From Rhyzopertha dominica (lineage: Eukaryota; Arthropoda; Insecta; Coleoptera; Bostrichidae), in the NCBI GenBank assembly GCA_025024175.1, contig QCXZ01000137.1, positions 3,844,001 to 3,908,000 on the forward strand: 64,000 bases of DNA, read 5' to 3'. The translations under genes and the position numbers were made by a program. Shown piece after piece: positions 13,301 to 61,050 of the stretch. The notes under the pieces were generated by a model. That model saw only the letters and a program-made list of their open reading frames with translations, had not been told where the DNA came from and did not search any database. Each line of letters opens with the position of its first letter. Within the stretch, counting starts at the first letter, position 1.

Positions 13301-16300
13301 TTTCCTGACGATTTCGGAAAATTTCCTTCAAAGATCAAGAATTATCGATATTCAAAACTGTATTTAAATCCATCATTAAATTTTTAATTGTGTAAATTTG
13401 GAAAGTTTTTACGGTTTATTTTCCAAAACATTAGAAATACACTTTTTCACAACCAAATTTGGAGGAAACATGACTTGACCAATAGAAAACTTGACCATGT
13501 ATGGCCTGTGCTTATAGAGTCACTGTAGCGGTAGAACATTCAGAAAACGCCCACTTGTGGTCAGTGCACAAACTATTTGCTAACATTTAACATTGTATAA
13601 ATTGCTTAAACCAAACCAGAGATATTAGTGATTTCCTATATCAATCATCCTTCCCACTCCTTTATTTGACTTTTTTCTAACAAATGTTTAATACAAAAAT
13701 GATTGAATTTAGTTCATAAAATATTATAATATTAACTACTGCATATCATTATTATTGGAGACTAGTATGGTGTCAACCCGCTTTGCGGGTTATAAATTGT
13801 AAGATGGGGTAAATGCTACATCCAATAATATATAGTAAAATAATTGGGTATCGTGGTTTGGAATATAATACTCCACCGCCCTTTTCCCCTCCACCGCCGA
13901 TACCCCTCCACCGCCCTTTTCCCCTCCACCGCCGATTCCCCCGGTTTGTAGTAGGACACAATTACATTTAGTCAACTTAATTTTTATGTAAAACCTCTAA
14001 TCCCGCTTTGAAATTGTATAAAAATTAATATAAGTTATGTTTTTGAATATAATACTCCACCGCCGTTCCCCATCCACCGCCTATTCCCCTCCACCGCCCT
14101 TTCCCCTTCACCTCCGATTCCTCCGGTTATTGATATAGAACATACATAGTTAACCTATTTAACTTTTATGTGAAATCTCTATCCCCGTCTTGAAATATAA
14201 TTAAAATACGTTAATGTCATGTTTGGAAATATAATACTCCGCCGCCTTTGTCCATCTACCGCAAAAATATTTTTTTAACCGGGGGGGGCTCCGCCCCCCC
14301 CGGACCCCCCCCCCCGTATCTATTCATTTTGCTTGCCTAAATAAATTTTATAACAATTAACTTTTATATAAAACCTCTAATCCCACTTTGAAATTGTATA
14401 AAAATTCATAAAAGTTGTTTTGGAATATAATACTCCACCGCCGTTCCCCCTCTACCGCCGATTCCCCCGGTTTGTAGTAGCAAACAATTACATTTAGTCA
14501 ACTTAACTCTTATATAAAATATCTAATCCCGCTTTTAAATTATATAAAAATTAATAAAAGTTATGTTTTTGAATATAATACTCCACCGCCGAATCCCCCG
14601 GTTATTGATATAGAACATACATAGTTAAGCTATTTAACCTTTATGTGAAATCTCTATTCCCGTCTTGAAATATAACTAAAACACGTTAATGTCGTGTATG
14701 CAAATATAATATTCCGCCACCCTTCTCTATTCACCGCAAGAGATTTCTTAATAGGACCTTACACCTATCTATCATGCAATGATGAGATAAATAATACACA
14801 ATTTTTATTATTTATTAGAACGCGAACGTTACTAACATATTCATAGTTATATACAGAAATGGTGATATATTTTTCTTCAATTGGCTTGATATCAATATTA
14901 CTTGTTATCGTAACAGAGGACGCCGGTGATCAATTTAAATTTAAAAAAAATTTTTTGGACAACGTTGATCACACACGTGTAGGCTGAAGAGGGAAGAATT
15001 TCCACGTTTTAAAGAAAAGTGGAAACCCNACCGTGTCCTCCCTGCTCGTTGTCCTATACAAAAGATTATTAACAAAAATATATAAAAAAACATTTAAGTA
15101 ATTAATTTAAGGACGATTAGCAGTCTACAATACATATGCATCCCTGGATATTTTTTTGGGTTTTATGTTTTTTTAATTTTTTTTGTTTTTTTTTGTTTTT
15201 TAATATTTTATAAACTTAAAATAGAAAATTAGTACATATATATTTAACAATGATAATAAATGAAATTTTTGTTTCGAAATGTGTTTGTATTGTAGAACTA
15301 CAATATATATAATATATAATTTATATATATTGCTATAATATGAGAATGGTATTAAATTTAGAAATGTTGGCATTCTATGATACATACACATTCGCAGTAC
15401 AATTTTTATTACTTATTATCTAAAACATTGAAGTGAAAGTAATAAAACATGAAAAATAAAATGTTTTAATATTTTCTGTTGTTTTTCTTTTTTATTTTTT
15501 TATTTTTAATATTTTTTTTATATTATTGATACTTAAAATAATATAATAATATAATTTTTTTATTATTTTTTTCCGTTTTTGTTTTTTTTAATTTTTTTTT
15601 ATTTTTTTCTTTTTTTTCCTGTATTTTTTCTTAAAACATTGAACAAAATAGATATATATGTACATTATGATGATATAGCATGCAAAAAAACAATATAATA
15701 TGAAACCTAAAATATATCTTATGTAATAAGACTCAACGGAATCTCTCAGGGAATGCATTTGTGTTGTAGAAATACAATATTTAAAAATACAATAACATAC
15801 AGTATGTACAATGATACACCATATAAGGATTAGGACGGTAGAACTGGAGTTAGATGGGCCCTGGTGGTAGATACTACGACGGATGAAGACCGGAGACGAC
15901 GCGTTTATTAAAGAAATTAATCGGCTGGATGTACAGTGTTTGAAGAAGTGTATAAACGTGTACGAAGAGAACGAACCAGGTCGGATGGACAGTTGTGCTG
16001 ACGTTTTCGCCAACGCTTTTGAAATTATTCATTTTCATAAAAAATATATTATTATAACATAACCCTTTCTGGTTTTCCATGCTCACTTGCCCACTGTCGA
16101 AGCTCGTTCACTTATAACAATGAGGGCTCACATATCAAACCGCAAGGGTTGTAATGATGTACAAAAGTTTGATTTAATTTTAAATATTATGAACTAACCG
16201 GTCTTCAATGATCACTTACCCACTGTCGAAGCTCGTTCACTTATAACAATGGGGGCTCACATATCGAACCGTTTAGAACACTTGACAGTAAAAAAAATGA

Positions 16301-19300
16301 AAAACACAATTTGGATATGCTGTTCTATATGACCGTCAACATTCACTCACCCACTATCGAAGCTCGTTCACTTATAATAATGAGGGCTCACGTATCGGAC
16401 CGCATAGAACAGCAACATATTTAATGTATTATATAAAAAGAAATGAACAGAAATGAACCGAAAACGAAACAGGTACTGACTGGATACGCGGATCTGTAAA
16501 ATTAATATGAAAAATGAAATGAAACGTATAATTTGGAATAATTCGGCCTTTTGAGAATTAAATTAAAATACTAATTGAAAAAATACGTATTCGAATATGA
16601 ATTGAAGGAATATTAAATATATTAAATTGTTACTGAAATATTAAAAATGGAAAATGTAGACTAAAAATTGAAAGTAAATTAATGAAACGTTACTGAAGGT
16701 AAAACTACAAAAAAGGTTTATTTAATTTCGAGAGGATCTGTTGAAGAATTAAAAACTACATGTATAAAATATCACAGATAATTATCACAGTCAAAAGAAA
16801 TAACGAAAAACTTAACAAAAGTTTGTACCAATAGGAGTACAAATAACAAATAACATTGTAAAAATATATATGTTGTAAAAAAATGTATATATATGTACAA
16901 ATATAAAGACGGGTGGTTGTTAGTCAGACGTACAGCGAAAGACTATAAAGCGCTGCGTGTAACAATATTTTTGGTATATGTTTTGTCACCAGCTCGGCCT
17001 TGACATGTTGTTTCTGTTATTTGTATTTTTAAGTTACTACGACTGGTGACTCTTGAAAAACTAACGTACAATTGCCCGTGGGCAAAGGGCGGTGTTTTTA
17101 AATAGACGCCCACTTTTTTGAACGTTTGTCCTTGACCTTTATGTGCGGTCATCGCGAACGCGAGCTTGACCGGAAATTGTGTGCGTGTCAATGGAAATGG
17201 TACGTCCTCCTCAGTTGTTAACTTAAATTTTGGCAAAATGACTTTTTGGCCCTTAAATTTCCCACAGATACTCTCTAAAATCAAAATATTATCTTTCATT
17301 TCTTTAACTACCAAACGCGTACCATTGCACAAATTCAATTGAGTATTTACATTACGCAACAACATCACAATTGCTCCCACTTTCAAACGCAGTTCATGAG
17401 GAGGCAAAGACTGCGGAACCAAACTGTTTATAAATTCTGAAGTGAGCTCAGATCCGTCCTGATCGTCTCGACATTCTAATCTAGTTGCGCTCAAATAGAC
17501 TCTTTCTTCCCCGGGAATTTTCTCTGATAGTATCTTATTATTAATTTCTATGGCGTCTTCGTTACGCATGCAGAGTATGGCGACGTCGAAATAAATGGAA
17601 ATGTCGTCAGTGGAAATTAAATTTTGATCAAAAATTTCATTTATTACATTATCGGTCAATAGATCTGAAGGGATTGCCACGTAATCCTCAGGACCGTCTT
17701 CGATAGAAAAATTAATTTTACCGTCGCCAACATCTAAGAGCCAATTTGCAAAATCGATTTCCTCGGGGGCAACACGCATGTTTCGAGTCAATTTCAAATA
17801 TGAAACGTGGCTCCACAAATAGAAATTTTTGGCGCATTGTTCGGCGGCGTCAACAGCACTTCCGTGTTTGACTACTGGCAGGCACTGACGGAAATCCCCA
17901 CCGAATACTACAATTTTGCCGCCGAACGGCTTATCGTTTGCCATTAATTCTGATAATTTATCATGAACGACTTTCAGAACGTATTTGGAGCTCATCGAAA
18001 CTTCGTCCCATATAATCACTGACGTGTCTATAATTTTGCGGGCCTTTTCTGAACGATTGTCTAAATTGGACACAGAAGTTTCGCTTAGTTGGAGCGGCAC
18101 CATGAACGTTGAGTGTACAGTGGCGCCATCCGGTAACAAACTGGCTGCGATTCCCGATGCTGCCACACATAAAAAGGACATCTGGCGGCTTTTTGCGTAG
18201 GAGCATATCAGTTCGAACAAATACGACTTTCCCGTACCACCGGGACCGTCGACCATGAAGAGCGTACGATCGTTCCGTTTTTCTATACTATTAACGATGG
18301 CATTGAACGCTGCCTTTTGTTCTACATTACATTTTTGTAATTTTTCAGCAAAATTTTGATCAAGCGGAGATGCGATCCGTTCTTCATCGTCGATCGTTAT
18401 TTGTTCCGTAGGTACGGACAGACCTAAATTCTCATTGTTAGTGCCCAATGTACGCAAAATTTTGTCTATGCGACTTAATGCCGCGTTATAAGCAGTCTCT
18501 TTACTGTAACCTTTGCGTATATAATCTTCTGACAGAAGGTCTTTGAATTTTTCCCACAAACCGTGAGGGTCGGTGGGCTGGGCAAATACGCAAAGTAGAG
18601 CGAAGAAGTTCCGTAACTGATATGGCACCGCGCTCAAGCTCGCTTCTCGCAGCGCATCTTCCCATTGTGCGTCTGAATCTAACAATCCCATCGCTTCAGC
18701 AGCCTCTTTAAAGGTGGCGTACAATCTGCCGTTAACCGTGCGGACGTCTTCGTAGCTGGTTTTACCCTTAACGTGAAGCAAACAAAGACGGAGGTAAAAC
18801 CTTTCTAAATCGCGTGGTGAAACTGCATACATTCTTACTACAACCTTAAATTTATTTTTACGCGTGTGCCAACTGAAATTTTGTCTATCCCACGTGTAAT
18901 GTTCAGGAATTTCGTAATAGGCGTATTGTCGAGCAACTTGTAATTCTTTATTTAATTCAAACCAACCGGTTAACATCGTGGGCTTGTCCGCGGCTTTTTG
19001 AACGGCTTCTTCCTCCTCGCCCTCCTGGAAATAAACTATCTGTTCGTTCGGCAAGTGCACGGGCAATCTCGTGATCGAATGAGATTGTTTAAAAATTTTG
19101 AATTCGCAAATGATATAATATCCCTCATTCGAAGTGAGATATCTGCAGTCGAGGAAACTGGTGCATTCATCATAACTTACTTCTACACGGGCAGCATCGA
19201 ACCCTTTGTAAACGTACAAATAAATATATTTAACCGATTTTATGGATGAACATATTTCGATGTTAATATGACATCTATAACGTAGAAGTAAATTTCGATT

Positions 19301-22300
19301 GTAAGGCACGACCCAAGAATTATCCACGATTACATCTTTTCCTTCGCGTTTCGTAATAATCTGAATATTATTTTTTGGTCTCTTGTAGACCGGATAACCT
19401 CTAACGTTCAAAACAGTTTCCTCGCTGAAGGCTTTAGGAAACGCTCTCTCGCATTTCTTTGGATCGTCCCTTCTGCATTGTAAATTCGACTGTTCGTTAC
19501 ATGGCCCATGAATCATATGTCTAAGAACTAAAGAAGTGAGGAGGTCGTTTTCATCAGGAGACGGAAGGTAGGCTTGGACGACCCGATCGACTGCCGTTGT
19601 ATCGGTAAATTTAAAAGGTTCATCTAGAATGATCAGCATGTGACAGTGCGGCAGTCCTCTTTTTTGAAATTCAATTACTCTGATCCAAGCCTTGACCTCG
19701 CCGAAAATGTGTTTCTTTGTAATTTGGTCCATCAAATCATTTAATTTTAACTCGAAAACTCTATTCACAATATCGGGTCTGTTAATGTAAGATTCACCCT
19801 TTCTCAAACTGTCTTTAATTTCTGTCCAGGACGGGTTAGCCGTAAAAGTTAAAAAAATGTCTGGCTTTCCGTACCGTTGGACTATACTCATGGCATCAAA
19901 GTAACGCTCCGTGTACATGCGTGGCGAACATCTGTGCGTGCTAGGTAAAATGACTGCCTTTCCAGGAGGTAAATTCAGGTCATCTACGCCACCTTTAACG
20001 TAATCAGATAAACCTTTATAAAGATCCGCTCGCAATTTAGTTTGGTTCTGTCGTATCCAGTTTAAATCGTTCGCTTCGATTTTCAAAGCGGCGTCTACTA
20101 TGAATTGCTGAGTTAGGCGGCCAACCTTAAAAATTCTATTTCGTTCGATCGGTTCATTTTTCGGTTGGCGATAATGCAACAAATATTTATAATATTTGTG
20201 CATAGTCAACGTCTGTCCGTTAGGAAGCTTCACGAAGGGTTGCCAACCTGGCTCTCCAGAGGGAAAGATGACCGGGTACATGAAAGCGTCGATGTTGGGC
20301 GATAAAATATTCAGCCGTTTATACACTACTTTATCGTCTTTATTTTTGGGCAAAGGATAAAAAACCATGTCTCGATGAAACGGCGGCCGCCCATCGATGC
20401 TCTCGAAAACCATTGCAACTTCCGTTGCTCCGGTGGCATTGTTGGGCAGGTTATACCTCCTTGGGTCGTCGCGGCGATCACGGATCATGGCTACCTTTGC
20501 GCTTGGCCTTTTATTGGGGTTTTGACACAACTGACGTTCGTACACTTCACGTAACATCATAAAAGATTTTGCAAAGGGATTACAGTCTTTCAAACACCGA
20601 TCCAGATCGTTTAACAATCTTTCGTCCAAATCTGCACTGAAATTATCTGATCGCGCTTTTGTCGCTTCCGCCGTATCGAGTACGTAAAGTTGTGCGTACT
20701 TGGGTCGACCAACATTTGGAAGTAAACTTTCACAAATCTGATGTAAAAACATCCCTTGAGTTTTGAAGGTATAGATGTGTGGACCGGCAGTATCGTGCAC
20801 AACTTTCGTCTCACCCAACGACGCAAACGCCAAAGAATTGTTATAACTACGGATATCTCTAATGAATTTTTTTGATTTTGGGTGCAGATCGTTTAAAAGA
20901 TCCCTAATCAATACTGGCATCGGTTTAAAATAATCACAAATAACTTTTCCGTTTTCGCAACATTTAAAATACGCGCCTCTAAAAGCCTCATCTTTGAAAT
21001 AGAGCGATCCGCAAAAGTGACACGTGAAATTCATTTGGCCAGAACTATGAGGCTTTACTTTAACTGAGTCTATAATTTGCCAAGCCCAAGGTACACGATC
21101 ATTAATAATTAAATTTTGAATTAAAGGAACTGAATCGTTTACCGCACCAACAGTTGCTCGTGTACGCCGGTTTTTTCGGGGACGTCCTCTTTGAGTGCGT
21201 GTAGATACAGGGGATAGTATTCGAGCAGATGTTGGGGAGGAGGTAACGGATGAAGTTTCAGAAGTAACATCTTTAGATTGTGCAACTACTTTGTTATGTG
21301 TACGTCCTTTTTTATTTGTAATAGTGGCCGGGATTGAAGTAGGCAATATTGCTGTAGGTCTGACGAAACTTGTTGTAGTAGACGAAATGTCAATGGGCGG
21401 TATAGGAGAAGTTGTTATTGATGAACTATCGGAATGGACGTCTTGTAATTGCGGAGGTAGCCTTTTGCGAGGACGTCCCTTTTTCCTTTCGGTTATAACT
21501 GAAGATGAAGGCGATGAAGATGGAGTTGATTGAAAGGATTTAATTTGAGAGGCAATTACATTTGAAATTATTGTATCAGTTTGTTCAATATTTTGTGATA
21601 TAGAATGAGCTGCGGTAGTAGGTTGTTTAGCAGTAGACTTACTTGATAGAAAACGGCCCTTCTTATCACGTTTGGTTATAGGTGTAATTGAAGAAGGTGG
21701 TGGTGGTGGTGGTGGTAAGAAGGTAGGAGATGATGTAGCAGAAGACGTATTCGATAAAATAAAAGGCGATGTACGTTTGCGGGGTCGTCCTCTACGTTTT
21801 GGCACATTGTCGGAAATTGAAGGTGCGGCAAACGGTATACAAATTGGCTGTTGAAGATTTATATTTTCAACTTCCATGTCAACATCTAGAATGGAAGTTG
21901 TCGATGAAGACGAAGGACTGCTTGAAGGAGTCGGAACATCGGAAACTGCAGCAGTCTTCGCAAAACGACGTTTACGGGGACGGCCCGTTCTTCCAGCTGG
22001 TTTGGGTTTATCCAAATTAGAAGTAGTTATCGGATCGGCCGTAGGAGTTACGGGCGTCGTAGGGGAATGAGCTCGTTTAGGCGCAGTGGGTTTGTCAATA
22101 GCAAGTTTTGAAATTTGACCTACAAATTTTTCGCTAAGGGAAGTCCTTTTGGATCTTGTCACACGCGTCGATGAGGGTATGATGATTTCCGTTGTTGGAA
22201 AAGGTGTTACAATTCTAGATTGCAAAATGTCGTAAAAATGCTGACGTAATTGTGTGACGTCGTATGTAGTTTCGGATGGGTTGCCACCTTGGGCTAAGAC

Positions 22301-25300
22301 GATACTGTTAGCTATTGCGTATAATGCGCAAGAGTTCATATCCAGTTGAAGTTGAACAGGATGAAACTGCACTGTTGCCGAAGGGTACAGTTTAGAAATA
22401 TAATCTCTCATGGAACCGTACGTAATGGAAGTAGAATTGAGAGAATCGAAAACGTGCACGGTACCGTTTTCGAACAAAACCGTGATCCAATGGCCTATTC
22501 TGTTGGCGTATTGTGCCTGATCAAGTCTTGACCAATCGATATCGCAAGCAGAAGCTTGGTTCAAAGTGAGGCTGTCGCCAAAAAGAATTTGAATATCACG
22601 GTTAGTGTGAGCCCTACATTCAAGGTTATCGAGAAAATCGTGATTATAATAGAATTGTGTTTCTTGTATGTTGTATGTGGGGAATTGCCGATTAAATAGT
22701 TCAATAAACGTTCCCATGACGGCAGTGTCAATGTAACTGTCCGGTTGTAGAATATGTTCGAAGGAACCCATCGTTGCGCGATGATAGCTAAAATATGCCA
22801 AAAAAATATAGTTGTAATTGTGTTAATGTAAAAAAGTAATATATCGTTTATTAAAAATATAATATTTGGTAAAGCAATAATGAGCGGTAATATTTTTGGT
22901 ATTGTAAAAGTAAAATAAAAGGTATAATAATTATAATATAGTATAAACATAGATAAATCAATAAATATACAGCCTTGCAGTGTGTATAATTGTAGATGAA
23001 ATTAATGTGCACAAAGTGTTGAGATATCTTATAATTTTATTAATTATAAAATTTAAGTAAATCATATTATTTTTTATTGTAGAAATATAATTTTTTTTTT
23101 ATAATTTCCAAAGTTTACAGACGCAAATATTTTTATTCATGTGAATAAAGAAATTGTGACAGTGTAGCTTATGTAGTTACACATTAAATATATATATTTT
23201 TTATTTACAATGGATTAAACGAAATGAAAACGATAAGTTATGAATGTGTGTAATATATTGATTAAAAGAAAAATAACGATTGTACAGAAATGTTAATAAA
23301 TTCTTGACTTACCCTTATATAATGTAAATATATGATAAAAGTACCACCGTGAAACCGTAGAAGGAACTCTTACAGCAGCAGTTAGTACTGAAACGAAATT
23401 CAAAAATAACAACAATAAAGGAAAATTAATACAATCGTATCGTAATAACTTAATTAACCGCTTTATTTAAAATTGTATGAAAAAATATTTTGAGTAAAAG
23501 TAACAATAGCCAAGGAGTACTCGATAAAACTGTTTACCATATTTATATAATGTGACCATATTTGAAGTGTGAAATGAAATGTACGCATTTTTAAATAAAA
23601 CCACTTATATTTTTATACCTAGTTGTAGTTACACATTAAATCCACAGCAAAGAATTATTAAGATATATGTGACTGAAAATTAATAATTTGGAAGATATGT
23701 GTAGATAATTTAACTCTCGTACTTGTTTGGTTCACGACTATTGTAGTTCTTGGGCGAAAATGACTGAAGTAGATGCGACAGTAGTAAATGAATATTGAAC
23801 AATGCAATGTGCAATTTGTTTACAGTGTTAGCAAACTGAAAGTAGTAAATTAAAGAGTGATTTTTTTTATTAAAAGCAAACGTACCGCCGAAACCGTCAA
23901 TTGTAAAGCACACGTATAGTAATGTTATTTTGTTTTGATTTTGATGCACAGTTAGAATTCGATATATAAAAGGTGAATAATAAAATGAAAAAAATAAATG
24001 CAAATTCGGTTTAGTATTCGAGAATTGGCAACGTTGTATAAGTTTGCTTTATTACATAATTTAGTACTCGGTTGTTATCGATTGTTTTGAAAAAAGAAGT
24101 TTCTGTACATCTCGAAATAGAACATTCAATTAGATGAATATACTACTTATATATATGTTACTCGAAAATGTGGAAAATTTGCACTTGACCCCCTCCCCCT
24201 AAAAAATCTAGGGGCGTGATCGCAAAAACAAAACTGTCGTTAGAAAGGCCCCCAAAAACAGGGTCGGACTGAATGTCGGGCTGCGGGCGCCGTCGATTGC
24301 CGCATCCTATAGTACTTGTCCAGATAAACATTTTTAAAAGAGAAAAATTTTTCGCTACCATGCACCGTTTTCGCGATACGGGCGATCTAATATTTCGTGT
24401 ACGGAAATTTTCCGAGTTTTCCAAAAGGAAAGCGTGCAACTTTAAAAGATCTACGAAATCAGTAAAGACGGCCGAAGGACCGTACTTTTCGAGGGTGGTG
24501 ACGAAATATGGCAGAAAAAATCATCCGCATTAAAAAAAATACCAAATTACCCCCATAATCGACCCTCCTCCCCCGTCGGGAAAATGGAAAACAATGAAAA
24601 ACTAACTACAGACAAAAAGAACTCGCGCAACTGATTCTAACGCACTTTTACCCGATTCGATATCTAAAAAAATGTAAAAGTTAGGCGCCGTCAAAGTATG
24701 AGAGTTAAAAAAAGACGGCAAAAATTTTCCCATTTTCCGACGTTTCCGGAAAATTTCCTTCGACCATCGAAATCGACTCACGGAGTATTACCGATAACGA
24801 TAATTCGGTGAAAATCCAACTATTTACGTGTGCCATAATAACATCACGTTTGGGGGTGGTTTTTCCAATAAATTTTCCGAACGGGTAAAGGAAAATTCGA
24901 AATTCCACCGGACGATGTCCTTAAATGAGCTATACCTGCGTACAAAATTTCATCGCCCCAGCTCAAATAACAAAGCGATAATGGGAAAAAAACGTAAAAC
25001 CATTCTCCGAACTTTACCGGACCGCCGTACCGGAACAGAGGGCGCCACCTGCGACAAAGATGCATTTTTGAAAAGCGCTCGGACCCGACATCGTCTCACC
25101 GTGAAGAGAACCAGGCAAAATGCTCCGTTGCGAAAAAAAAAATTTTCGTTTTCGGTAGAGAATTTGAACGTCGACCCGGAACGATCCGGGCCCCAGGAGT
25201 CCCGGAGCCGTCGGAAGCGGACGGACCTCCCAGACACGACAGTGAAAACCGCAAGTCGCTATCTCTTTCCGTTCGGAAGTTACGGGCCTCCGAATGGGGC

Positions 25301-46300: not shown

Positions 46301-49300
46301 NNNNNNNNNNNNNNNNNNNNNNNNNNNNNNNNNNNNNNACCTGAACAGAGGGCGCCACCTGCAGTACAGATGCATTTTTGAGAAGGGCTCGTATCCGACA
46401 ACGTCTCACCTTGAACAGAACCCGGCAATACGTTCCTGCGAAAAAGAAATTTTCGTTTTCCAGAAACGATTTTAAAATTTATCCGGAACGATCCACGCTC
46501 CCGGAGTCCCGGAATCGTCGACTCCGGTACTCCCCGAAGCGGACGGACGTCCTGAACGCGACGGTGAAAACCGCAAATCTCTATCTCGTTCCGTTCGGAA
46601 ATTACGGGCATCCGAATTGGACAGGGTCGCGAAGCGAAAGGGTCCGAACCCCGCCAGGGGGTGGAAACTGAAAATAGAGCGTCCTAACCCAGCCCGATCG
46701 GTGGACGGTCTCTGATCCCATTTTGGATAGGAGCATTCGATAAATCGAATGCGATAACTTTTAGGGGTCTACGACGCACCGTTTTCGAGATATCAGCCCC
46801 TAAAGTTTCGGCTGCGGGGGGCGATCTCGAAAATTTCGAAATCTACCCCTTCAGAGCTAGGAGGACGAAACTCGGTATCCGGAGTCTCGTGGTGGGTAGA
46901 AATCGATTTCCCAAGCGGCGATCCGATCGGACGTTCGGTTTTCGAAATATCGCACCCCCAAGTTTAAGGGATGGTCGCGATAAACGACGCTACGGCCGGC
47001 CCCATATCTCGGGAACGGAGAATCCGATCGGAGCGTGCGAGGGCTCGTCGGAATCGTCTCGGCGGAGGCAACCAAGCGGGCCTAGGTGGAAAACGGTCAG
47101 GAAAAGCGGAAAATTTTAATAGGAAAAAGCAGTTTTCGAAAGCCCCGTCGGGGGATGAAATTACGTCGGACGCGAAAAATTCCGACGACACGTAATCGGT
47201 CGATGTCTAAATTACGTAATGAGTTTAAAAAAATAGAAAAAAATGTAAACGCCCACGATTTTCCAAAAACAATAATTTTCCGGATTTTCCCGCCCCTAAA
47301 CCTTTAAGGGTAGGCGATAGAGGGTCGTGCGACACCTCGTCAGAAAGCTCTCGATCTTCCGGTGACGGCGGTGTAAAAACATCCGCCTTAACTCGAAGGA
47401 CTCGGGAGACGTTCGAGAAAATCCTCCGACGCGTCCGCCGAAGGAGCCCCCTTTAAAAGCCGTTATTTTAATAATTTAATAAAGAAACTAACTGCTTAAC
47501 GTAAGTTTTCACCTCCCGTAAGTAATTTCATAAGTTATACAACACACACGAATAAATTTTTCGTCAACACATAACCAAACTGTATGTGGGAACGACTCGT
47601 TCGTTAGTCCATCCAAAAAGATACGTACGAAGTTGCGACCCACTGCAGAAGGTATAATTAAAAAATTCACAGTGGCCGTCCCCGGCGTCGCAGAAACACG
47701 TGCGATACGGCAAAAGAAAGGCCAAAGAACGTAGTTTCATCCCGTACCGTAAACAGTAATAGTATAAAAAAAGCACATTCCAAAATGTGACTTTCCTTTC
47801 TTGAAAAAATTTTGGCAATTTTGGAAAATAAAACGATAACAACGTTTTGAAGGCAATATTTTGAAAGGGGTGTGAAGTATTAGTGCAGAAGTGGTACCGA
47901 AAGATAGCCCGGAATCTGGACTTCCATGCGGTACGTGAGCGAAACGGATCGCCGCATAAACGTCGTCGCTATGACTGGAACCACTACGGAGCCGTCGCGA
48001 AATAGACCGATCGAAGGCTTCGCGGGCACGATGCAAGGCATTTTTGAAAAAATTCACCGCGACCGCCCCAGACATCGTAGAGACACGCGCGACACGGCAA
48101 AAAGAAAGGGGAAAGAACGCAGTTTCTCGTCGGAGTGTGTGATACTTCGTTCAAAATGCGCCGATCAGTTCATAAAGGGCGACTCGTCAGAGGGGCAACC
48201 TAAAAAAAAAATTGTCAGCGGCGCCACTGGAGCCGAGGACTTTTGGTGCATGCGGAAGGTGCTCAGCACAGTCGGTGAGGTGACGACCCGTCAACGCACG
48301 TGATTTTAAGGGACCTTTAACATGTGACTTTTCCGCTAGGAAGCGAAGTTTATTTTCCGCCCCTTCATGAAAAATTTTGGAGAGGTGGCAGACTGGCCCA
48401 CCCTATCGAGACGGTCGTCGGTACCGTCGAAGGGAAAAATCGTACAAAGTTTGAGACCCGATCGGCCAAAAAATGCGAAAGTTATGAGGGAAACACGTGA
48501 CGAAGCAAACGGTCGACTTTTCAAGGTCACAGCTTCCGAAGGGTACTATCTACGAAGGTGGGACGGGTACTAAAGATAGCCTGAAATCAGCTCTTTCCAA
48601 CGGTACCCGCACGGAACGGATCGACCAATATACGTGGTCACTACGGCAGCCCGAGTGCAAACGTGCGCTCAGACAGACGATTTTTGGCCCCGACGGGCGC
48701 GACGCACGGCCGTTTCCTTAAAAATTCACTGCGGCCGTCCCAGACGTCGTAGAGACACGCGCGGCGGGGCAAAGGAAAGGGAAAAGAACGTAGTTTCGTG
48801 TCGAACGCGTTTCCGCTCGTCAAAATGTACCGATCGGTATATAAAGGGCGACTCGTCAATGAGGCACCCCATTACTAAAGTTCTCGACGCCGCCACTGGA
48901 ACCAAGGACTTTTCCCGCACATGAGGAGTACTCGGCGCAGTCGGGGGGATGACGACCTATCGACCTATCCGGTTTCGAAGGGACCTTCGACGTCTGACAT
49001 CTACACCGGAAGCCGGAGTCGGTTTTCGACACCACCCAAAAAAATTTTGGGAGGGGTGCGACGCAGGCGTTTTCGATCAAGGCGATCGAAGCACACCGTC
49101 GAGGGGGTAGGTCGTACGAAGTTTGAACCCGATCGGAGCAAAAATGCGAAAATTACGGAGGAAACACGTTACGACGAAAAAGGTCGACTTTTCAAGGTCA
49201 CAGCTTCCGACAGATGCGGCCCAGGGTGTCGGGGTAGTTACCGAGAGATAGCCCCGAATCAGCTCTTGCCGACGGTACCCGCGCGGAACGGATCGACGAA

Positions 49301-52300
49301 TATATGCGGTCGCTAGGGCAACCGGAGTGCAAACGTGCGCTCGAACGGACGATTTTTAGACCCGGCGGGCGCCATGCGGAGCATCGTTTGAAAATTCACC
49401 GCGCCCGTCCCAGACACGGTGGAGACACGCGCGATGGGGCAAAAGAAAGGGGAGAGAACGAAGTTCATCGTCAAACGCGTTTCAGCTCCCCAAGATGCAC
49501 CACTTAACCTGCAAAGGACGACTCGTCGAAGGGAGCCACAAAAAATATTCGCGACGCCGCCACTGGAACCCAGGACTTTTCCCGCACATGAGGGGTAGTC
49601 GGCGCAGTCGGGGGGGCGACGGCCTATCGACGTATCCTATTTCGAAGGGACCTTCAACGTCTCACTTTTCCGCCAGAAGCCGGAGTCGTGTTTCGGGCCA
49701 CCCCTAAAAATTTTCGAAGGGGTGCGACGTAGACGCGCCCGATCGAGGCCGCCTTCGAGCACCCTCGAGGTAGTAATTCTTACGAAATTTGAACGCGATT
49801 GGGCAAAAAATTCAAAAATTACGGACGACACACGCGACGACGAAGAAGGTCAACTTTTCAAGGTCACAGCTTCCGACAGATGTCACCCAGGGTGTCGGGG
49901 TAGGTACCGAGAGATAGCCCCGAATCAGCCCTTTCCGACGGTACCCGCGCGGAACGGATCGACGAATATACGCGGTCACTACGGCAGGCAGACCGCAAAC
50001 GTGCGCTCAAATTGACGATTTTTGGCCCCGGCGGAGGGGTCGCAGAGCATTCTTTAAAAATTCACCGCCGCCGCCCCAGACATCGTGAAGACACGCGAAA
50101 TAGGGCAGAAGAAAGGGCGAAGAACGCAGTTAATCGTAGAACACGTTTCGGCTCCTCGAGATGCACCGTTTCGTCCGTAAAGGGCGACTCGTCAAAGGGG
50201 AGCCCCCAGTAAAAAATCGCGACGCCGCCACTGGAACCCAGGACTTTTCCCGCACACGAGGGGTAGTCAGCGCAGTCTGGGGGACGACGGCCGATCGACG
50301 TACCTACTTTCGAAGTGACCTTCAACGTCTCAGTTTTTCGCCAGAAGCCCGAGTCGGTTTTCGAAGCCCCCAAAAAAAAATTTCGGAAGGGTGCGACGCA
50401 GGCGTACCCGACGGGGGCGGTCGTCGGGACCGTCGAGGGGAAAAGTCGTACGAAGTTTGAACCCGATCGGAGCAAAAATGCGAAAACTACGGAGGAAACC
50501 CGTTACGGCGAAAAAGTTCGACTTTTCAAGGTCACAGCTCCTGTCAGAAGCGACCCGGAGGGTCGGGACCGGTACCGAGAGATAGCCCCGAACCAGCTCT
50601 TTCCGACGGTACCCGCGCGGAACGGATCGACGAATATACGCCGTCGCTACGGCAGGCAGACCGCAAACGTGCGCTCGAACGGGCGATTTTTGGCCCCGGC
50701 GGGCGCGACGCAGAGCGTTCTTTGGAAATTCACCGTGACCACCCCAGACACGGCACGAAGGCGAGCGATACGGTAAACGAAAGGGGAAGGAACGTAGTTT
50801 CTCGGCGAACGCGTGTCCGCCCGTCCAGATGCGCCGCCCGTTCGGTAAAGGGCGACTCGTGAAAGAGGTGTCCCTACGAAAATTCGCGACGCCGCCGCTG
50901 AACCCAGGACTTTTCCCGCATATGAGGGGTAGTCAGCGCAGTCGGGGGGCCGACCGCCTATCGACGTATCCTATTTCGAAGGGACCTTCAACGTCTCACT
51001 TTTCCGCCAGAAGCCGAAGTCGTGTTTCGGGCCCCCCCTAAAAATTTTCGGAGGGGTGCGACGCAGACGCGCCCGATCGAGGCCGTCTTCGACCGTCCTC
51101 GAGGAGGGAAATCGTACCAAGTTTGAACGCGATCGGACGAAAAATGTGAAAGTCACGGGGGAAACACGCAACGAAAACGAAGGTCGACTTTTCAAGGTCA
51201 CACGTCGAGACGGTGACCTCCGAGAGGAACGTGTCGGGTACCGAAGGATAGCCCCGGACCTGCCCTTTCCGACGGTGCCCGAAAGAAGCGGATCGGTGAA
51301 GAAACGTCGTCGCCGGCGGGGCGAAACCGGAGAGACGTCTCGAAATCGAGTCGAACTACCCGGATTATCCCGGAGTCGAACGTCCACCCGGAGTTCCGGA
51401 ACCTCACGCCCGAGTAGCGCGGCGCGGCGTCCGTCCGACGCAGAAAACCGCATTTCGATAGGGCGCTCGGTTCGGGAGCTATAAAACGATATAGTGCGAA
51501 AACGGCGATTCCGGACGGCCCGAAAAACACCCTCCGACACTCCGACCCCCATATCTCGGCAACGGAGGGTGACATCGGGACGCGCGAGGTACCGTCGGAT
51601 TCGGGAAGGAACGCTCTATCACGCCGCTCGGAAAAGCGAAATTCCGTTCCCGCCGTAATCGGGAGGAATTTTTTTTTGAACTTCACCCCCATTTTAGGGG
51701 ATGAAGAAGCGAGCCAGGGCAAAAATCGTTCCGGAGTCGCGTCGGGCACGTCGAGAAACGCGGGTTTGCAAAAAAACGCGATGCGAAAAACTAAGGAAAC
51801 GCGGCGGGGTAGACCCGCACGTTCGACACCCCCGTTCTGCTCGTGGGGGTCGGAGGGGTGCGAGCGACGGCCGTTCCCGAAGCAGAAAGCCCGCTCCGTC
51901 CTACGGTCGAAAAAATACGGCGATCGGGCCGAAAACACGTGTTTTATGGAAAGAGCGCGAAGGGCTAACCCGAAAACTGGAAAAATTCTCATTTCAACCC
52001 CCCCCGTCCAAAAAATTGCGGGCCTAAATCGCGATCGCGACGCGACCGTCGGACGGCCCGCGAAAAAAACTTCGATTTGAGTCCGGAGACCGGGGGTCGC
52101 ATTTTCACGGTTGAGGAGCTACGGGCGAAATTTCGGAGTTCCGTGCCGGAACGAAAGCCCCCGAAAACAGGGTCGGACCGAAAATCGGGCCCCGGGGCGC
52201 CGCCGACCACCGCAACCTATAGTACCCGTCCACATAAACATTTTTCGAAGAGAAAAATTTTTCGCTACCGCGCACCGTTTTCGAGATACGGGCGATCAAA

Positions 52301-55300
52301 GATTTTGTGCACGGAAATTTTCCGAATTTTCCGGAAAGAAAGCGCGCGAGCGTGAAAGTCCGACGACGTCGGAAAATATCGGCAAAGGACCGTTCTTTCC
52401 GGAGACGCGGACGAAATATCGCGAAAAAAATTACCCGCGGCAGAAAAAAATACCGAACTACCCTCACAATCGACCCCCTCCCCCGTCGGAAAAATCGAGA
52501 AAAACTAAAAGCGAAAGGCAGGGGGAGAAAGAACTCGCCGAGCAGATTCCGACGCACTTCGGCCCGACCCGATACGCGAGAAAACGTAAAAGTTACGCGC
52601 CGTCGAAATATGAGGATCGAAAAAAGACGGCGAAAATTTTCCGATTTCCCGACTTTTCCGGAAGACGCCCTTCGACCGTCGACGTAGGCTCGCCGAGGAC
52701 CACGCGTCACGAAAACTCCGTGAAAATCGGACGACCCTCGTGCGCCACGCGGAAGTGCAGAACGGGGGTGGTTTTTCCGATACATTTTCCGAACGGGTGA
52801 AGAAAAATTCGAAATTTTTCCACCGAACCGAGCCTCCAGGTAAGCCTCATCCGCGTGCAAAACTTCATCGCCCTAACTCGAAAGACAAAGGAACGGCATC
52901 GAAAAAACGTAAAAAGTCGTAAATTCACCCCCGAAACTTCGCCGTGCCGCCGTGACCGAAGCGGTGGCGCGATCGGCGGCCGAGACGCGTTTTCGAGAAG
53001 GGCTCCGGCCCGACTTCGCCTCGCCGCGAACGGAACCCCTCGGGACTCTCCGTCGCGAAGAAAAAAATTTTCGTTTCCTAGAAACGACTCCGGCGTTAAC
53101 CCGGAGCCGTCCGGGCCCCCGGAGTCCCGAAGTCGTCGAGTGCGGCTCCGTCAGGAGCGGACGGACTTCCCGAACGCGACGGCGAAAACCGCGAGCCTCT
53201 AGCTGTTTCCGTTCGGAAGTTACGGGCTTCCGAAGGGGGCCGGTCGCGACGCGAAGGGTAGCCCTCGAGTCCCGACGCCGCCGAGGGGTGGCAAGTGAAA
53301 ACGGAGCGACCGGACCCGGCGCGATCGACAGTTCGACCCCGAAATCGGTTTCGCCGGGCCGACTTATTCGAAGAATTCGAATGGACCAAAATCGCGAAAG
53401 CGCTAGGACGCACCGTTTTCGAGATATCAGCCCCCAAAGTTTCGCCTACGGGGGCGGTCCGCGGAAAATCGAAACCCACCCCTTCGGCGCTAGAGGGACG
53501 AAACTCGGCGTCCGGGGTCCTTTCGTGCGCCGAAGTCGATTTCCGAAACGGGGATCCGATCGGACGCTCCGTTTTCGAAATATCGCACCCCCAATTTTAG
53601 GGGTTGTTCCTGAAAACGGCCGACTTCGCCTCCCCGTAACTCGGGAACGGAAAATCCGATCGGGGCGTGCGAGGGCTCGTCGGAATCGTCTCGACGGGGG
53701 CTACGCGGCCGGCTCGCTCGGAAAACGCCGAGGAAAAGCGGAAAATTTTCGTGGGAAAAAGTAATTTTCCGAAGGCTCGCGGAGGGGTGAAAAAACGTCG
53801 CACGCGAAAAATTCCGACGGGATCGTGATCCTCGATGTCCGGACCGTTTAAAAAGTGAAAACGGAGAGAAAAAAATTTCGAGGCCCGCGACTTTCTGAAA
53901 AAAATCGATTTTCCCGACATTCCCGCCCCCGCAATTTTAAGGGTGGGCGCGAGGGGGTCGTGCGACGGCTCGTCGGAGAGCCCCCGACGTCCTCTGAAAG
54001 ACGGCGTAAGAACGGGCGCCGTAGCTCGAAGGACTCCCGAGATATCGGGGAAAATACGCCGACGGGTCGGCCGGACGGGCCCCCTTCGAAAGTCCGGGCC
54101 CCCCGGGCCCCTCCCGCGAAAGATACCGAACCGGCCGCGAGACCGACGCGTAGAACTCGCCTTCCCGAACGAAAAAGCTATGCGAAGGGAAAGTCGTGCG
54201 ACCGCGCGTTCCAGAGTTACGGCCGGAAAACCCTTTCGGCGAGCCCGGGACCGGCACGGGGCGAAGCCCCTCGGGGCCCGATCGGCTCGAGCTCCCGGAT
54301 TCCGAACGCCCTTAGAGAAATAAGCGTTTTTCGCCCGCGGGCGATTTTCGCTACGACGCGCCGTTTTCGAGATACGGGGTGATTCGCGAAATTTGCAGGC
54401 CCGTCTTCGGACCGACCTGGCTCGAAAATTTCCTGGACATAAATTCTGTTCTCGCTTTCGAAACGACGAACGCGGAGCGAAGTTTACGTCGCCGGACGTG
54501 CCGTCCTCTCGTGGGCATCGGAAGTCGCTCCGCGGGCTCGCCGAATTTTATCGTTTTTCGACCCGCCCCGGCGCGCCCTCTGCCGGCGAACGCGCGAACC
54601 GCGACCGTCGGATCCCGGAGACCCCGGCGGGACCTGTCGAACGGCGAAAACCGCGTTCCGATCGGACGACGCGTTCGGAAGCCGTTCGAGTTGGAAATTC
54701 GCAAAAAAAATTTTCAGCGCCCCCTATCTCCGAAAATAGATTTTTTCCGCACGTACGGCCCACGGGGCGTTTACCCGCGCATCACGGACCGTCCGACGGG
54801 AGACCCTGAAGAAGATATTTCAAGCCGTTTTCGAGCACCGAAAGGCGGTTTTAAAAAAAATTTTCGCGTTTCGTAAAGAGAAGGGGAGGGGTAGGGGGGC
54901 GACTTTTACCTCGACGGATGCGCCCTACCGGAGGCCACCTTCGGTCAAAATTTCGTCCCGATCCGTCGGCAAACGCCCGAGTTATTCTCGAAAAACGCGT
55001 TTTTTTTGACCCGCAAAAAGTTCGAGTTTATCTCGCCGTAGCTCGCGAACGGCGCCACCTGGCGGGACGCGCTACCCCTCGATCGACGACGCCGAGTCCG
55101 CCCTTTCGAACGCGCCCCGTCCCGTCCCGATCGGAGAATGCCGCGGGTCGGTCCCTCCGGGACCGACCGTTTTCCCGTACCTCGCACCGATTTTCCGGGG
55201 CTTTCCCGGCTCCGCCGGGAAACCCCCGTATTTTTCCCTTCGCCCGGGGCCGGGGGAAAAACGAACGCAAAAAACCGCATCTTTCTAACCTTGTCGGAAG

Positions 55301-58300
55301 TGGGTGATTTCGAAAACATGTAATTTCGTTATACTATAGAGATAATGTAGCCCTCTCTAGAGATGATTTTACGAACTTGACAATAATTTTCAGCTTTTTG
55401 GTTGTGTAAATTTTTTCCTCGAAGCTCTAGGATTGCTGGTATATGAGATAAGGCTGATCACCTATTTTTATGTACACATAACACCGTTATTTTGCTGTAT
55501 TTACTCTTTAACCTTAAAATACAGAATCTGTCTAGTAACAGTTTAAAATCGATTACTTAATTTTAATTTCTTTATTTATTAAAGCGCTGTCCCAAATCTT
55601 CTACTGTCACTACTGTTGTACTTGAAATATAGGGTGTTCCGATTTTCCGAAGTGCCGTTATTCCAGTCATTAAATTATTTGTTTATTTTACTCTTATCTC
55701 TTGCTTTACTGTCTCAAGTATGACTACGAATACTGATCGTTCTTTGGTTATAAAACCCTTTCAGTACACACAGTAATCTCCAAATCCAGCAAATTTGTTT
55801 CTCAAAGTAACACTACCACTTCTCTTCAGGAAATAATGGACGTGGAACACCTGTGGCACTATAACGAGCTGGAGCTCAACAAACTGAACAACGATGCCAT
55901 CATCAAGAAGGAGAACTCCAGCGGTTCCGTACACAACCTCTCTAATCATCCGTTACTTGCCGGTACCGCTCTCGCTGGTACTACGGACGCAAATCCCGAT
56001 TTCGTTGCGAACCTGTGCAGTATAGCAGATCGGAGGCTGCTGAAAATCGTCAAGTGGTGCAAGAGTCTTCCGTTGTTCAAAAACATCTCCGTAAGTCATC
56101 GATGAAGTATTTTGTTCAAATTCTTGTACAGTAAGTGATTTGTTTCTAGATTGACGATCAAATTTGCCTTCTCATCAACTCCTGGTGCGAACTGCTTTTG
56201 TTCTCGTGCTGTTTTCGGTCGATGTCGACACCTGGAGAGATCAGAATCTCGTTGGGGAAGAGCATAACGCTGAGCCAGGCGAAGGACATGGGCATGCAGG
56301 CGTGCATCGAAAGAATGCTCAACTTCACGGAACAGTTGCGTAGGCTTAGGGTTGACCAGTATGAATATGTTGCCATGAAAGTTATAGTACTTCTTACTTC
56401 CGGTAAGTACAAATTTGCTGGCCCACTCATTCTATAAAAGCATGTATTGCATATGAAGACTGTCATAGAAACTGCGAACGAAATGATTTTTGACTTTGAC
56501 CTGACCAAACCTTTATAAAAAGTAATTCTAAAAATAAGTGTTACCATATATTTTTAACAAACTTTTTAATGAGCAAAAAAGAACCACTTTATTCTATTTT
56601 GTGTTCTTAATGGAGCCATTATGAAAAGCAAATTGTGTATTGTAATAGAGCCATTATAAAATGGAATTTTTTGTTTCAATGTTGGTATTACTAAAAAAAC
56701 TCTGAATAGGGTCATCCCGCACATTAAAATTTGATAGTTTTAACCTATGCCTTTTATTGCCTGCATCATTAATACTAGTGCTATGCATCTATTTTGCTTT
56801 TAGATTAATTCAACTCGTAACAAACAGAGGTAGAAAAATTACCATGTTTCAAACATTTTCTTAAATCCGCCAACAACTACGCAAAAGGTTCCTAATTTCC
56901 GTCATGCGCACTGTTACAGCTCCCTAGGTAACTAGGTGCTCACTGTTGTCAGTTTTATAAATAGCCAGAGAAATACAAATAATGCAAAGGGGATGAGAGA
57001 GAGGAGCGAAGGTATAACCATCAACGTCAATATTACAATATTATAATGTAAACGTAGGAATATCCTGTAACTGTTTATCAGCACTAGTATTCCTACAACA
57101 CGGAACAAAACACTTGTTAATGTAAGCCATTCTTACATTAAAAAAACAACAGATTACCCAAATACTTTGACAATATCTTATTCCACCACTTAATCTGACA
57201 AATACGAAACTCGAAAGTTTGACAAAACTATGTAAACAAAAACGCGTGGCTAGAGTTAGGTTAGGGTTATTACGTTGCACATGGGACACATGCAACATGT
57301 GCGAACATGTGATGTTGTCAGTGGTACTTTATTGTTTTCTTCCTAACGACGGCCAGAGACAGTCCTGACAGTTTCAAAATTTATCATACCGTTCTGATAA
57401 GTAAGTATACAAACTTTAAACATTATCAAGCGTCGTTTAATTCCTCATAATAAAGACATTAGTTCAAAAGCAGGTTCGATGGTTAAAGTGCTTTCGTGTT
57501 TCAGCGAAATGCCAGTGAATGAGCTTATTATATTGAATTGTTCATTAACTGTCTGAAGGATGATATAAGTTATTTTCACAAATATGCCTTAAGTTGACGT
57601 AGGTATCAATGTCACAATGTTAGTTTACGAGTACATCCCTCAAGGTATCACGAAAATTTGCCCACATTGGCAACCCGACGCAGCTAAAAAAAAATGTAAA
57701 CAAATATTACTTGCAATGCCGCTAGAGCACTGGCTATTATTGGTGTTTCTCACTTTCGTCAGCATGAGAACCTTTTACGTCATCTCCGTGGTGGAATATC
57801 AAGGCATTTGAAACGGATATTGAAAATCCATACTTTCACATTTTTTTTCTCGGTAAACAAGAACCGGAAAATATCGCGAAAAAATATCTTTGTGCTTCAG
57901 TTTTTATGTACATTTTTAATGTAAAATAAAAAAAATTGTGTGACGACCCCATTGACATTGAACAAACTCCAACTCGTAATGTTGTAACTGTCATGGGTCT
58001 TGTNAAAATTGATACTTAAATATGGCAGCTTAAAAATCCCAAAATTTTTAAATTGTTTGCCCTACGGCTAAAATACTCAAGTACTGATTAAAATAATAAA
58101 ATTACTGTTTTATGAGGAATCTTGGCAATATTTTTTGAGGAATTACAAGAATAAACTTCACAAGAAAGGTTGCACTAAACATAAAACATTGAATTAAAAA
58201 CCAGGGGCTTGTACAGGAAAATGCTTGATACCCTAACCTAGCAATAAATTATATAATTAACTGAAAAATGTACTTCCAAGAATTCATCAACAAAATTAAT

Positions 58301-58857: not shown

Positions 58858-59024
58858 AAACACGTGCCTTATTAGCTTCTGGTGGCGGGTACTACTTATC
58901 ACAGACAGTATTTTGCTTATTACTCCATTTTTTAGCTTTAAGTGGAACTCTTACGTACTTAGTTCAACGTGCTGGACACTTTTCTTTTTAAAGAAAGTTC
59001 TTTTTTTACCCCCCGCGTCTCGCC

Positions 59025-59047
59025 GTGCGAGAATCAGATTCTCGCAC
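59025..59047 (+). promoter_or_regulatory. GC-rich hairpin in the Hr39 3' UTR
   Basis: GTGCGAGAAT, loop CAG, ATTCTCGCAC: a perfect 10-bp stem with a 3-nt loop, in otherwise U-rich sequence. In RNA it would be a stable stem-loop. A protein-binding or decay element is possible; its function is unknown. Confidence 0.5.
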
Positions 59048-59744
59048 CGTGGGAAGCCCCTTTTACTTTTAGGCGGCCCTTTTGTAAATATATTTTACAC
59101 GATAAGTTTTTATTTTGAAGTCTTTTCTGTTTGTCATTGCGTACTAGTGAGTCATTCCATGGAATTCATGTGAACTGGAAGGGCATAGTCATCAAAAGGA
59201 AATTTGAGCCTCGCCGTTTTTTTTTTTTATAATTGGTATCTTTCTCAGCCTGAAAGGAATATATGATGTGCAGGAAAAATTTTGATCTCTTTTGTGCATT
59301 GCCAAATTTTTCAATTTGACCTACAATGTTTTATTTTGATCTCCTGAAAGTTATATTTAGTGATTTGTGGTTAGTTCAATACTTTTTCTTTAAAATTTCA
59401 GCCTTAAAGTTATAATTTGCAACACAAGCGTTACCTTGCCATATTTACTTAGTATTGAAAAAAAATACAGTATTTTTTTTAAATGCCATAGACTGACGAG
59501 CAAAATATTATTACACCATTGGTCTTTAGACAATGATGTCATTTTAAATTCTTTTAAAAACTACCTTAATTTTTTGCATATGTTTGATAAATCTTTGGTA
59601 TCTAGCAAAACAATTTTATTAATAGTTAACTGATTACATACAATAATTTTTTAGAGTTTCTAGATTTATGTTTCTTAACCTATTTATTACTTTAGTTTTT
59701 GGAAGAACTTTATTTGAGAATGTTATCAGTTTTTATTTCATTTT

Positions 59745-59750
59745 AATAAA
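59745..59750 (+). terminator. Candidate polyadenylation signal of Hr39
   Basis: AATAAA in TTTTAATAAAGTTG, about 890 nt after the stop codon. It is chosen as the first canonical hexamer in a plausible context. Confidence 0.4.
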
Positions 59751-59760
59751 GTTGAAACCT

Positions 59761-61050
59761 AAGATTGTTATTTAAAAAAATCATAATGTCATTGAGTGAA
59801 TGCCGTAATCATATTTTGCACATTAGAAGATGACATCTTTAAAAACAAAATGAACATGAACGCGAATTAAGAAAAAACTCTTCAAACAAGAGAGTTATTA
59901 AATTGTTTCCAAATAAATTCATCCGTGTTCAAATCATTCAGTATTCATTTTATGGCTGAAAGATCCATATTTATTTTTTCTCAAAATTTTGTATCTTTGC
60001 TATTGAAAAATCTAGGAGACTCTCAGAAAAATATGCGAGCAATATGTGCTCACTAAACAAAGGAATATTATGTTGTATAATATTAAAATTGATCGTAAAA
60101 CGCTAACATCTCTCTGTGATCGTATAATTCGAGTATTTCCTGTTGCTGTTTCGATGCCTTTGCCCTTTGAGGAGTAAGTATGAGGCGTAGCGCGAGATAT
60201 TTCCTATTGTACATAAATCGTCGCTCTATTGTTCTAAATAGCAGCGGCACAGCTAAACCCCGGTTTTGATACTTATTTATTATGTGTGTGACATTTTATT
60301 ACATATTTTTTTTACATTCAAGTGCCAATCGAAATTAGGAGGCTTGCGTGCATGAAGAAATTAGTTGCTCTGTTTCCTATTATAAATTTTTTTTGAGGGT
60401 TTTATGAAATCGTTATTGGCTTCGAGTTTGTAGTTTACGGACGTTTTCTGTTCTGTTACACGAGATGGTTGCGCAAAATTGTACAAAGTTACTCGTATAA
60501 CCAATGTCAATACGCATTGTAAGACTTAGGGAGGCCTTTTTGCCTGCATATAATGCAGTATTAGCCCTAAAAAAAAAAGTTTTGTACTTGCATTTTACTA
60601 GCGGTTTATACAAACAATTTGTATTAAAATATTGAATATACATTTTACATTGGATTCTGTAGTTTTTATACCAATCGAATACCTGCAACTATTGAATTAT
60701 TACATAGACTTCATATGCATCCGTGCTTATTGTGATGGCATAATAAGTTTTTTTTTATTGAGTGCATTTCTAAATAACCTTACACTACACGTCTTTAAAA
60801 CACTACAAACAAATATGTGGGGTATTATTGCAATAAGAAATGGGTACGAACCGAAAACGATAAAAAATCAAAACTAATAATGTCACAATTTTACCATTCG
60901 CAAAGATCAACTGAAGTTAAATATGGCAGTCAATAAATTACATATGCAATGTTAGTAAAAAAATCGCAAGATACCTATCTAATGATGATAGAAGTTTATG
61001 TCCGTGAATAAAAGCAACTTAGGAGCATTGCTAGTGCACAATAAAGATAA
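59761..61050 (+). other. AT-rich downstream DNA
   Basis: No gene was recognised. The open frames at 60413-60688 (-) and 60632-60877 (+) overlap each other on opposite strands and are T/A-rich, so neither is called. The end is next to a Penelope relic. Confidence 0.45.

Follow-up and report, generated by a model that had tools for sequence, protein, structure and literature searches.

A giant and probably composite Helitron carrying a satellite array and an SGNH hydrolase gene within an intron of an apparent nuclear receptor gene

A 64,000-nucleotide stretch of the Rhyzopertha dominica genome (hereafter the window; C136:3844001-3908000 of a 479-Mb assembly) contains a Helitron1-type insertion, on the minus strand, in the intron between the DNA-binding-domain (DBD) and ligand-binding-domain (LBD) exons of an apparent NR5-type (Hr39-like) receptor gene. 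The element extends from 55342 to 13762 and includes an intact RepHel gene, tandem repeats, and a complete gene for a hydrolase of the SGNH type. On balance, we favor the interpretation that the element comprises the remains of two tandem units whose internal junction has been lost.

Helitrons are usually taken to be elements of 5-20 kb that pick up gene fragments. In the mechanism derived from work on Helraiser, RepHel introduces a nick at the 5′ TC, the nicked strand is displaced as synthesis proceeds, and the hairpin-CTAG ends the cycle; Helitron insertion takes place between A and T (PMC5876387).

Results

Termini of the element and their recurrence

The 3′ terminus (13762-13791, minus strand) consists of the hairpin AACCCGC-AAA-GCGGGTT, which has a 7-bp G+C-rich stem, the 9-nt spacer GACACCATA, and CTAG at 13765-13762, followed by a host T that is the complement of 13761 A. 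The 5′ terminus, termed A type (55313-55342, minus strand), begins with TCTCTATAGTATAACG at 55342, including the 5′ TC typical of Helitrons, and is preceded by a host A. Subterminal repeats with a period of ~182 bp, rich in TCCACCGCC, lie near the 3′ end (13857-14755, minus strand).

Both termini were used as queries against the whole assembly (160 bp for the 5′ end, 100 bp for the 3′ end; all match counts from genome searches are lower bounds). The 5′ end yielded at least 15 matches and the 3′ end at least 14, window included, so that at least 14 and 13 further matches, respectively, exist elsewhere. Furthermore, at C64:22369548 and C137:18243473 the 3′ end is joined directly to a second, B-type 5′ end, with CTAG followed at once by TCTATAATATAATG. 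Such head-to-tail junctions are a rolling-circle signature, found here in relatives at C64 and C137 and not in the window itself. Because both ends recur in the genome and are joined directly at two junctions, they are beyond chance, and the outer ends of the window element are genuine ends of a Helitron family, as the preliminary description of this DNA had proposed from the hairpin, spacer, CTAG, and 5′ end.

A host A precedes the A-type end at all three loci read, and each of the four non-tandem 3′ ends read has a T after it, the window being counted in each case. The A/T rule is not kept at every family copy, since the B-type end at C42 and the 5′ tip of a 37.4-kb candidate element (TCGTATAATATAACG) are both preceded by G.

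Host gene and insertion site

The nuclear receptor gene lies on the plus strand, with its DBD at 11344 and its LBD exon at 58380; NR5A2 is among the best PDB matches of the latter. The insertion is intronic because these two plus-strand segments lie on either side of it. An intron of Hr39 had been named as the location; the position between DBD and LBD exons stands, whereas the name Hr39, like the NR5 reading of the DBD at 11344, is tentative.

The described change in base composition at the right border was reproduced: G+C content falls from 0.54 (37904-55342) to 0.34 (55343-61100), and the observed/expected CpG ratio falls from 1.61 to 0.93 between the same segments. This ratio is near 1.6 in the G+C-rich modules of the element, 0.72 in the left flank, 0.93 in the right flank, and 0.71 in the internal satellite.

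The two flanks brought together as a 152-nt query matched 16 places. Two of these are the halves of the window itself, 11 are limited to a single side, and three cross the join (C1:11669211-11669354, C136:30871640-30871771, and C86:7820280-7820405). These three alignments contain both flanks in order, at 66-71% identity, with short indels or extra stretches near the join. Three paralogous copies of a dispersed host repeat thus have the two flanks side by side, which shows that 13761 and 55343 are neighbors in an unoccupied copy and indicates one net insertion. The empty sites are paralogous rather than allelic, and their divergence is too high to place the join to the base; taken with the host A and T at the edges, they support insertion between A and T without a target-site duplication. 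Unrelated borders at 13762 and 55342 were rejected on the basis of these empty sites and the direct 3′-5′ junctions.

Length of the element

As assembled, the element is 41,581 bp long. It contains an assembly gap of 100 N (46239-46338), and two stretches of ~7.7 kb that are 99.0% identical, 38541-46238 and its second copy at 46339-54020 (minus strand), both abut this gap. The duplicate is most likely an unmerged contig overlap. Because near-identical stretches abut the gap on both sides, the assembled 41.6 kb was rejected as the real length, and subtraction of 7,798 bp gives a likely length of about 33.8 kb. Thus, of the 34-42 kb range originally proposed, the lower figure is likely and the upper one is most likely an assembly artifact. 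A relative at C136:41.24 Mb has one array only, shorter than that of the window.

Gap-flush duplications also occur at C137 (among them one at 98.8% over 12.6 kb and one at 98.6% over 6.1 kb), where they are probably an assembly artifact that inflates repeat regions; near-identical pairs include 18159179-18171740 with 18212451-18225020, and 18248714-18254741 with 18254842-18260853. Duplications of this kind are a warning that repeat-rich elements are inflated in this assembly.

Modules and satellite

The modules of the element lie on the minus strand. Module M1 (52113-55342) is the G+C- and CpG-rich A-type 5′-terminal module; an array of ~668-bp G+C-rich A-type repeats occupies 40221-43515; and module M2 (37904-39668), upstream of the SGNH gene, is an internal diverged copy of the 5′ module. 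Module M3 (24158-27216) is instead a nearly complete, 5′-truncated B-type 5′-terminal module: positions 24242-27216 are 87% identical to B-type 5′-terminal modules, and 24158-24250 match the B-type module at 88% over a further 93 bp. M3 ends ~132 bp before the B-type terminus, inside a subterminal G+C-rich hairpin, where it abuts a 159-bp satellite array with a host-like CpG ratio (27217-32094). The presence of satellites and CpG-rich modules inside the element, as first described, is thereby borne out.

A query across the M3-satellite join (27216/27217) was crossed only in the window among the 51 matches listed. The M3 side of this query matched seven other places, one of them in a gap-flush duplicate, each with its near edge 104-136 bp from a 5′-end match. 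Exclusivity of the 159-bp satellite to the window element was considered and rejected, as short related arrays are found elsewhere in the genome. Within 5.2 kb, a decayed copy at C136:39411501-39417500 combines this satellite with an SGNH pseudogene and with sequence from downstream of RepHel. Two parts of the window element, at 22.8-24.2 and 32.1-35.8 kb, have weak or fragmentary matches to other copies.

RepHel protein

An intact RepHel open reading frame (ORF) of 1942 aa from its ATG lies on the matching strand (16943-22771, minus), in agreement with the preliminary description. It encodes a Helitron_like_N domain (Pfam, 2.4e-58) with the HUH motif (PHCHML) and YxxxY, together with a PIF1 helicase domain (1.4e-58); Rep and helicase motifs, GGTGKS among them, are located at residues 1042, 1182, and 1512 of the protein (P0001). 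A genome search in which 24 of 316 candidates were scored gave 40 RepHel matches. Three family copies, those in the window, at C64, and at C136:16.28 Mb, have an intact RepHel of full length; the other matches are fragments, broken copies, or members of other lineages at 35-40% identity. Open RepHel frames of such other Helitron lineages (37-40% identical) were observed at C137:36528456-36532601, C64:36091708-36095994, and C42:2985-6401. Between the window and C64 copies, dN is 0.13 and dS 0.96 (dN/dS 0.14). A protein search with RepHel recovered 16 relatives.

For the RepHel N-terminus, PDB sequence and Pfam searches yielded no credible match. A fold model of this part is of poor quality (pLDDT 48); SENP/Ulp1 proteases take up the first 12 rows of its Foldseek listing, with a best E value of 4e-3 and none at 0.001 or below. 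An H95, D110, and C149 pattern, of which certain residues are presumably catalytic, is conserved in two copies. The modeled N-terminus may therefore be a SENP/Ulp1-like protease domain. GRPRK motifs before the Rep domain are of a kind that we take to be AT-hook-like.

SGNH hydrolase gene

What had been described as a hydrolase exon is indeed a hydrolase sequence with SGNH motifs, but it is a complete, intronless ORF of 172 codons rather than an exon (35914-36432, minus strand). Its catalytic blocks are intact: the catalytic Ser (GDS), Gly, Asn (GTND), and Asp-x-x-His are all present, and the columns S8, G38-G39, N68, D153, and H156 are conserved in an alignment of four sequences. The protein matches the Pfam family Lipase_GDSL_2 (7.5e-16), and a sequence comparison with the PDB links it to PAF acetylhydrolase and to a LINE ORF1 protein, the zebrafish ZfL2-1 esterase (4c1b), among others. 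The structural model, of low-to-moderate confidence (pLDDT 66.7), matches SGNH hydrolases in Foldseek (E 4e-6). The Oskar OSK domain (Pfam PF17182, 1.6e-12) is a further good match of the protein. A fragment resembling part of the gene lies in the opposite orientation at 35534-35674.

Four copies of the same gene (SGNH1) occur at C136:41.25 Mb with 5.2-kb spacing, along with two copies of a second paralogue (51% identical) in the part read; the SGNH ORFs there are intact. The tandem 5.2-kb units of this locus (C136:41247618-41261000) are 99.7-99.8% identical, contain two SGNH paralogues each, and lie inside an A-type Helitron copy that is apparently inserted in the 3′ region of another Helitron; a further SGNH1 copy is at C136:41264829. 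The window gene differs from SGNH1 at C136 by 20 nucleotide changes (dN 0.032, dS 0.067, ratio 0.47), too few to prove strong constraint. Between the paralogues, dN is 0.48 and dS is not computable. A search of about 5.8 billion proteins, which detects only relatives with short exact words in common, returned two relatives at E <= 0.001 from 67 word-sharing candidates, one of the two being identical in sequence to the first gene at C136:41.25 Mb. The sequence read at C64, C137, and C42 gave no SGNH match, so the gene is not carried by every unit. The protein probably serves the element as an accessory hydrolase and is less likely to be random cargo.

Related copies in the genome

Family copies were delimited by pairing 5′ and 3′ terminus matches by coordinates. 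A gap-free copy, C64:22343695-22369547 (25,853 bp, both ends), has no gap of five or more N and contains an open RepHel frame of 1921 codons, four of them unread (N). It is followed by C64:22369548-22381157 (11.6 kb plus a gap). At C137, the copies are 18157902-18169319 (11,418 bp), 18233773-18243472 (9,700 bp, with a gap), and a third from 18243473 to about 18263339, with a diverged 5′ tip and a gap. For the remaining copies, C42:3261947-3272697 (about 10.75 kb), C64:59684914-59692885 (about 8 kb), C138:18032-31970 (13.9 kb), and the candidate C136:16280476-16317900 (37.4 kb), the spans derive from terminus matches, with interiors unread or read in part. Unpaired 5′ matches are located at C136:41241365, C137:18222431 (in a gap-flush duplicate of the unit ending at 18169319), C136:47763587, C41:40913616, and in a second C138 piece; unpaired 3′ matches are at C1:38500885, C86:9726549, C136:41085766, and C136:47459162.

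In the 10 kb read, the 37.4-kb candidate is collinear with C64 (93.9% over 5.46 kb, then pieces at 94.6% and 93.8%), and the 5.46-kb piece includes a satellite array of ~4 kb with a 133-bp period right upstream of RepHel. The 133-bp arrays next to RepHel are at C64:22353229-22357028 and C136:16289861-16293889, with CpG below that of the rest of the element. The gap-free 25.9-kb element and the partly read 37.4-kb candidate, with their common internal sequence and satellite, support a family of giant size, and they indicate that giant units with satellites have moved within this genome. The C137 locus is not fully independent evidence, because two of its units, 18157902-18169319 and 18233773-18243472, are 98.3-98.8% alike on either side of a gap.

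One unit or two

At both C64 and C137, an A-type unit with its own 3′ end is followed directly by a B-type unit of the same polarity. The truncation of M3 near the B-type terminus, the unique satellite join, and these A-B tandems together favor the reading of the window element as the remains of two tandem units. The first would be of A type, comprising the 5′ end at 55342, the 668-bp repeats, and the SGNH gene, with its own 3′ end lost. The second would be an autonomous unit comprising RepHel and the 3′ end at 13762, with its first ~132 bp lost, and the satellite array would fill the join between them. A Helitron placed between host A and T begins with its own T (A followed by TC), so that its left edge would again offer AT as a target; insertion of a second element there would produce a CTAG-TC junction, as preserved at C64 and C137. 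A composite with one left end, one right end, and RepHel could be nicked at the left, peeled off, and closed at CTAG, and could formally be mobilizable as one unit of ~34 kb.

Several observations weigh against a two-unit origin. The terminus searches detected neither an A-type 3′ end nor a B-type 5′ tip inside the window, and an internal copy of the 5′ module also occurs as M2. Among the 3′ ends compared, the C137 A unit has the one most similar to the window's (collinear, 92.3% over 844 bp), compared with about 88-91% over the longest pieces for B-unit ends and about 85-87% for the C64 A unit. Given the copy at C136:39.41 Mb, the family may have carried the satellite for a long time, in which case it would not have filled the join late. 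Each A unit of the tandem loci holds an assembly gap, and C137 is full of near-identical gap-flush copies, although both tandem junctions are themselves in ungapped sequence.

The alternative that the element is a single coherent giant Helitron of ~34 kb, integrated in one event, is possible but distinctly less probable. In such a unit, the order would be A-type 5′ end, repeats, SGNH gene, satellite, RepHel cassette, and A-type 3′ end, with the internal 5′-like module serving as the header of the RepHel cassette. Its merits are that the terminus searches found only one left and one right end within the borders; that divergence from the C137 A unit is about equal at the 3′ end (92.3%) and in the 5′ part (92.7-94.1%); and that other giant single units are apparent (25.9 kb at C64; 37.4 kb at C136:16.28-16.32 Mb, partly read). 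The paralogous empty sites suit it too, and fit the two-unit model as well. It accounts poorly, however, for M3, which unlike M2 reaches to ~132 bp from the B-type 5′ terminus, and for an M3-satellite join seen at no other place among those matches. Moreover, at C64 and C137 the A units end in 3′ termini of their own, and the sequence read from them, which in both cases contains a gap, has no match to RepHel; relative to C64 the window's 5′ part is 98.6% identical whereas its 3′ end is only about 85-87% identical. The original proposal of one 34-42 kb unit that transposes whole is therefore upheld as to the giant family and the one net insertion, but a single unit transposing whole is not supported, given the truncated second-unit module and the unique satellite join.

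It is improbable that the borders derive from different, unrelated insertions enclosing a random pile of transposons and host satellite. The mid-element satellite has host-like CpG content, related arrays lie at places with no reported family end, RepHel, or SGNH match, and the two poorly matching parts of the window would suit such an origin. Yet the joined flanks are contiguous in three host-repeat copies, the family's 5′ and 3′ ends are directly joined at two other places, and the modules, SGNH gene, RepHel, and 3′ region all recur in family copies. Least probable of all, and very unlikely, is that the locus is largely a construct of mis-joined contigs: the 100-N gap with its flush 99% duplicate, the similar situation at C137, and scattered single N are suggestive, but the duplicate accounts for 7.8 kb only, the gap lies inside an A-type array, and the joins at 13762, 27216, 32094, and 55342 are all in ungapped sequence.

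Outside the element, the right part of the window holds a 252-bp satellite array (61176-64000), and the left flank contains inverted repeat pairs (2279-4192) with arms ~1.2-1.6 kb apart.

Discussion

The window element resembles canonical Helitrons of the Helitron1 type in its 5′ TC, its hairpin and CTAG, its A/T insertion, and its RepHel (HUH-Y2, PIF1), and its relatives form direct 3′-5′ head-to-tail junctions as the canonical type does. It differs in carrying G+C-rich 5′ modules, internal satellites, and an SGNH gene, and in a RepHel with a possible SENP/Ulp1-like domain and an AT-hook-like GRPRK before Rep. In a 2019 survey, the longest of seven insect and spider Helitrons with coding remnants was 8,065 bp (PMC6544945), far below the length of the window element. 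Maize Helitrons with captured gene fragments reach 39 kb, as cited in PMC6431247; these are comparable in size and likewise have sequence without a role in transposition aboard, whereas the window element has a complete accessory ORF and tandem repeats instead of many host gene fragments. Tandem Helitron arrays are known in plants and bats, according to citations in PMC5876387. Direct junctions from 3′ end to 5′ end are common to those arrays and the present ones, which in contrast join very large units of diverged subfamilies, with A ahead of B at both places in this one genome.

The fish Texim genes are multicopy, Helitron-associated SGNH hydrolase genes related to CR1 esterases and PAF acetylhydrolases (PMC4021074). 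They are like the present gene in being multicopy SGNH genes tied to a Helitron. The texim genes have introns (PMC4021074), whereas the window gene is an intronless 172-aa ORF in an insect-like host, lies between an A-type 5′ end and RepHel, and is amplified in one relative as a 5.2-kb unit with two paralogues. The titles and abstract openings returned by literature searches mention no insect Helitron this large or with an SGNH gene, which does not prove absence from print.

A broader model, in which this lineage consists of modular giants (26-37 kb) that move with internal satellite arrays and amplify a dedicated SGNH hydrolase, and in which A-B pairs, that of this intron included, are mobile as one unit through bypass of the first 3′ terminator, is speculative and rather doubtful at present. 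Nonetheless, closely related copies in this genome point to units of ~26 kb and probably 37 kb that contain arrays of satellite DNA, and the family includes a complete accessory enzyme gene, which has kept its reading frame open and is repeated in one copy. These elements make three questions testable: how large a DNA load can be moved by rolling-circle transposition in an animal, whether satellites are seeded by Helitrons, and what role an SGNH hydrolase has in a transposon. The last of these has been posed before, for Texim of fish and for CR1 elements (PMC4021074).

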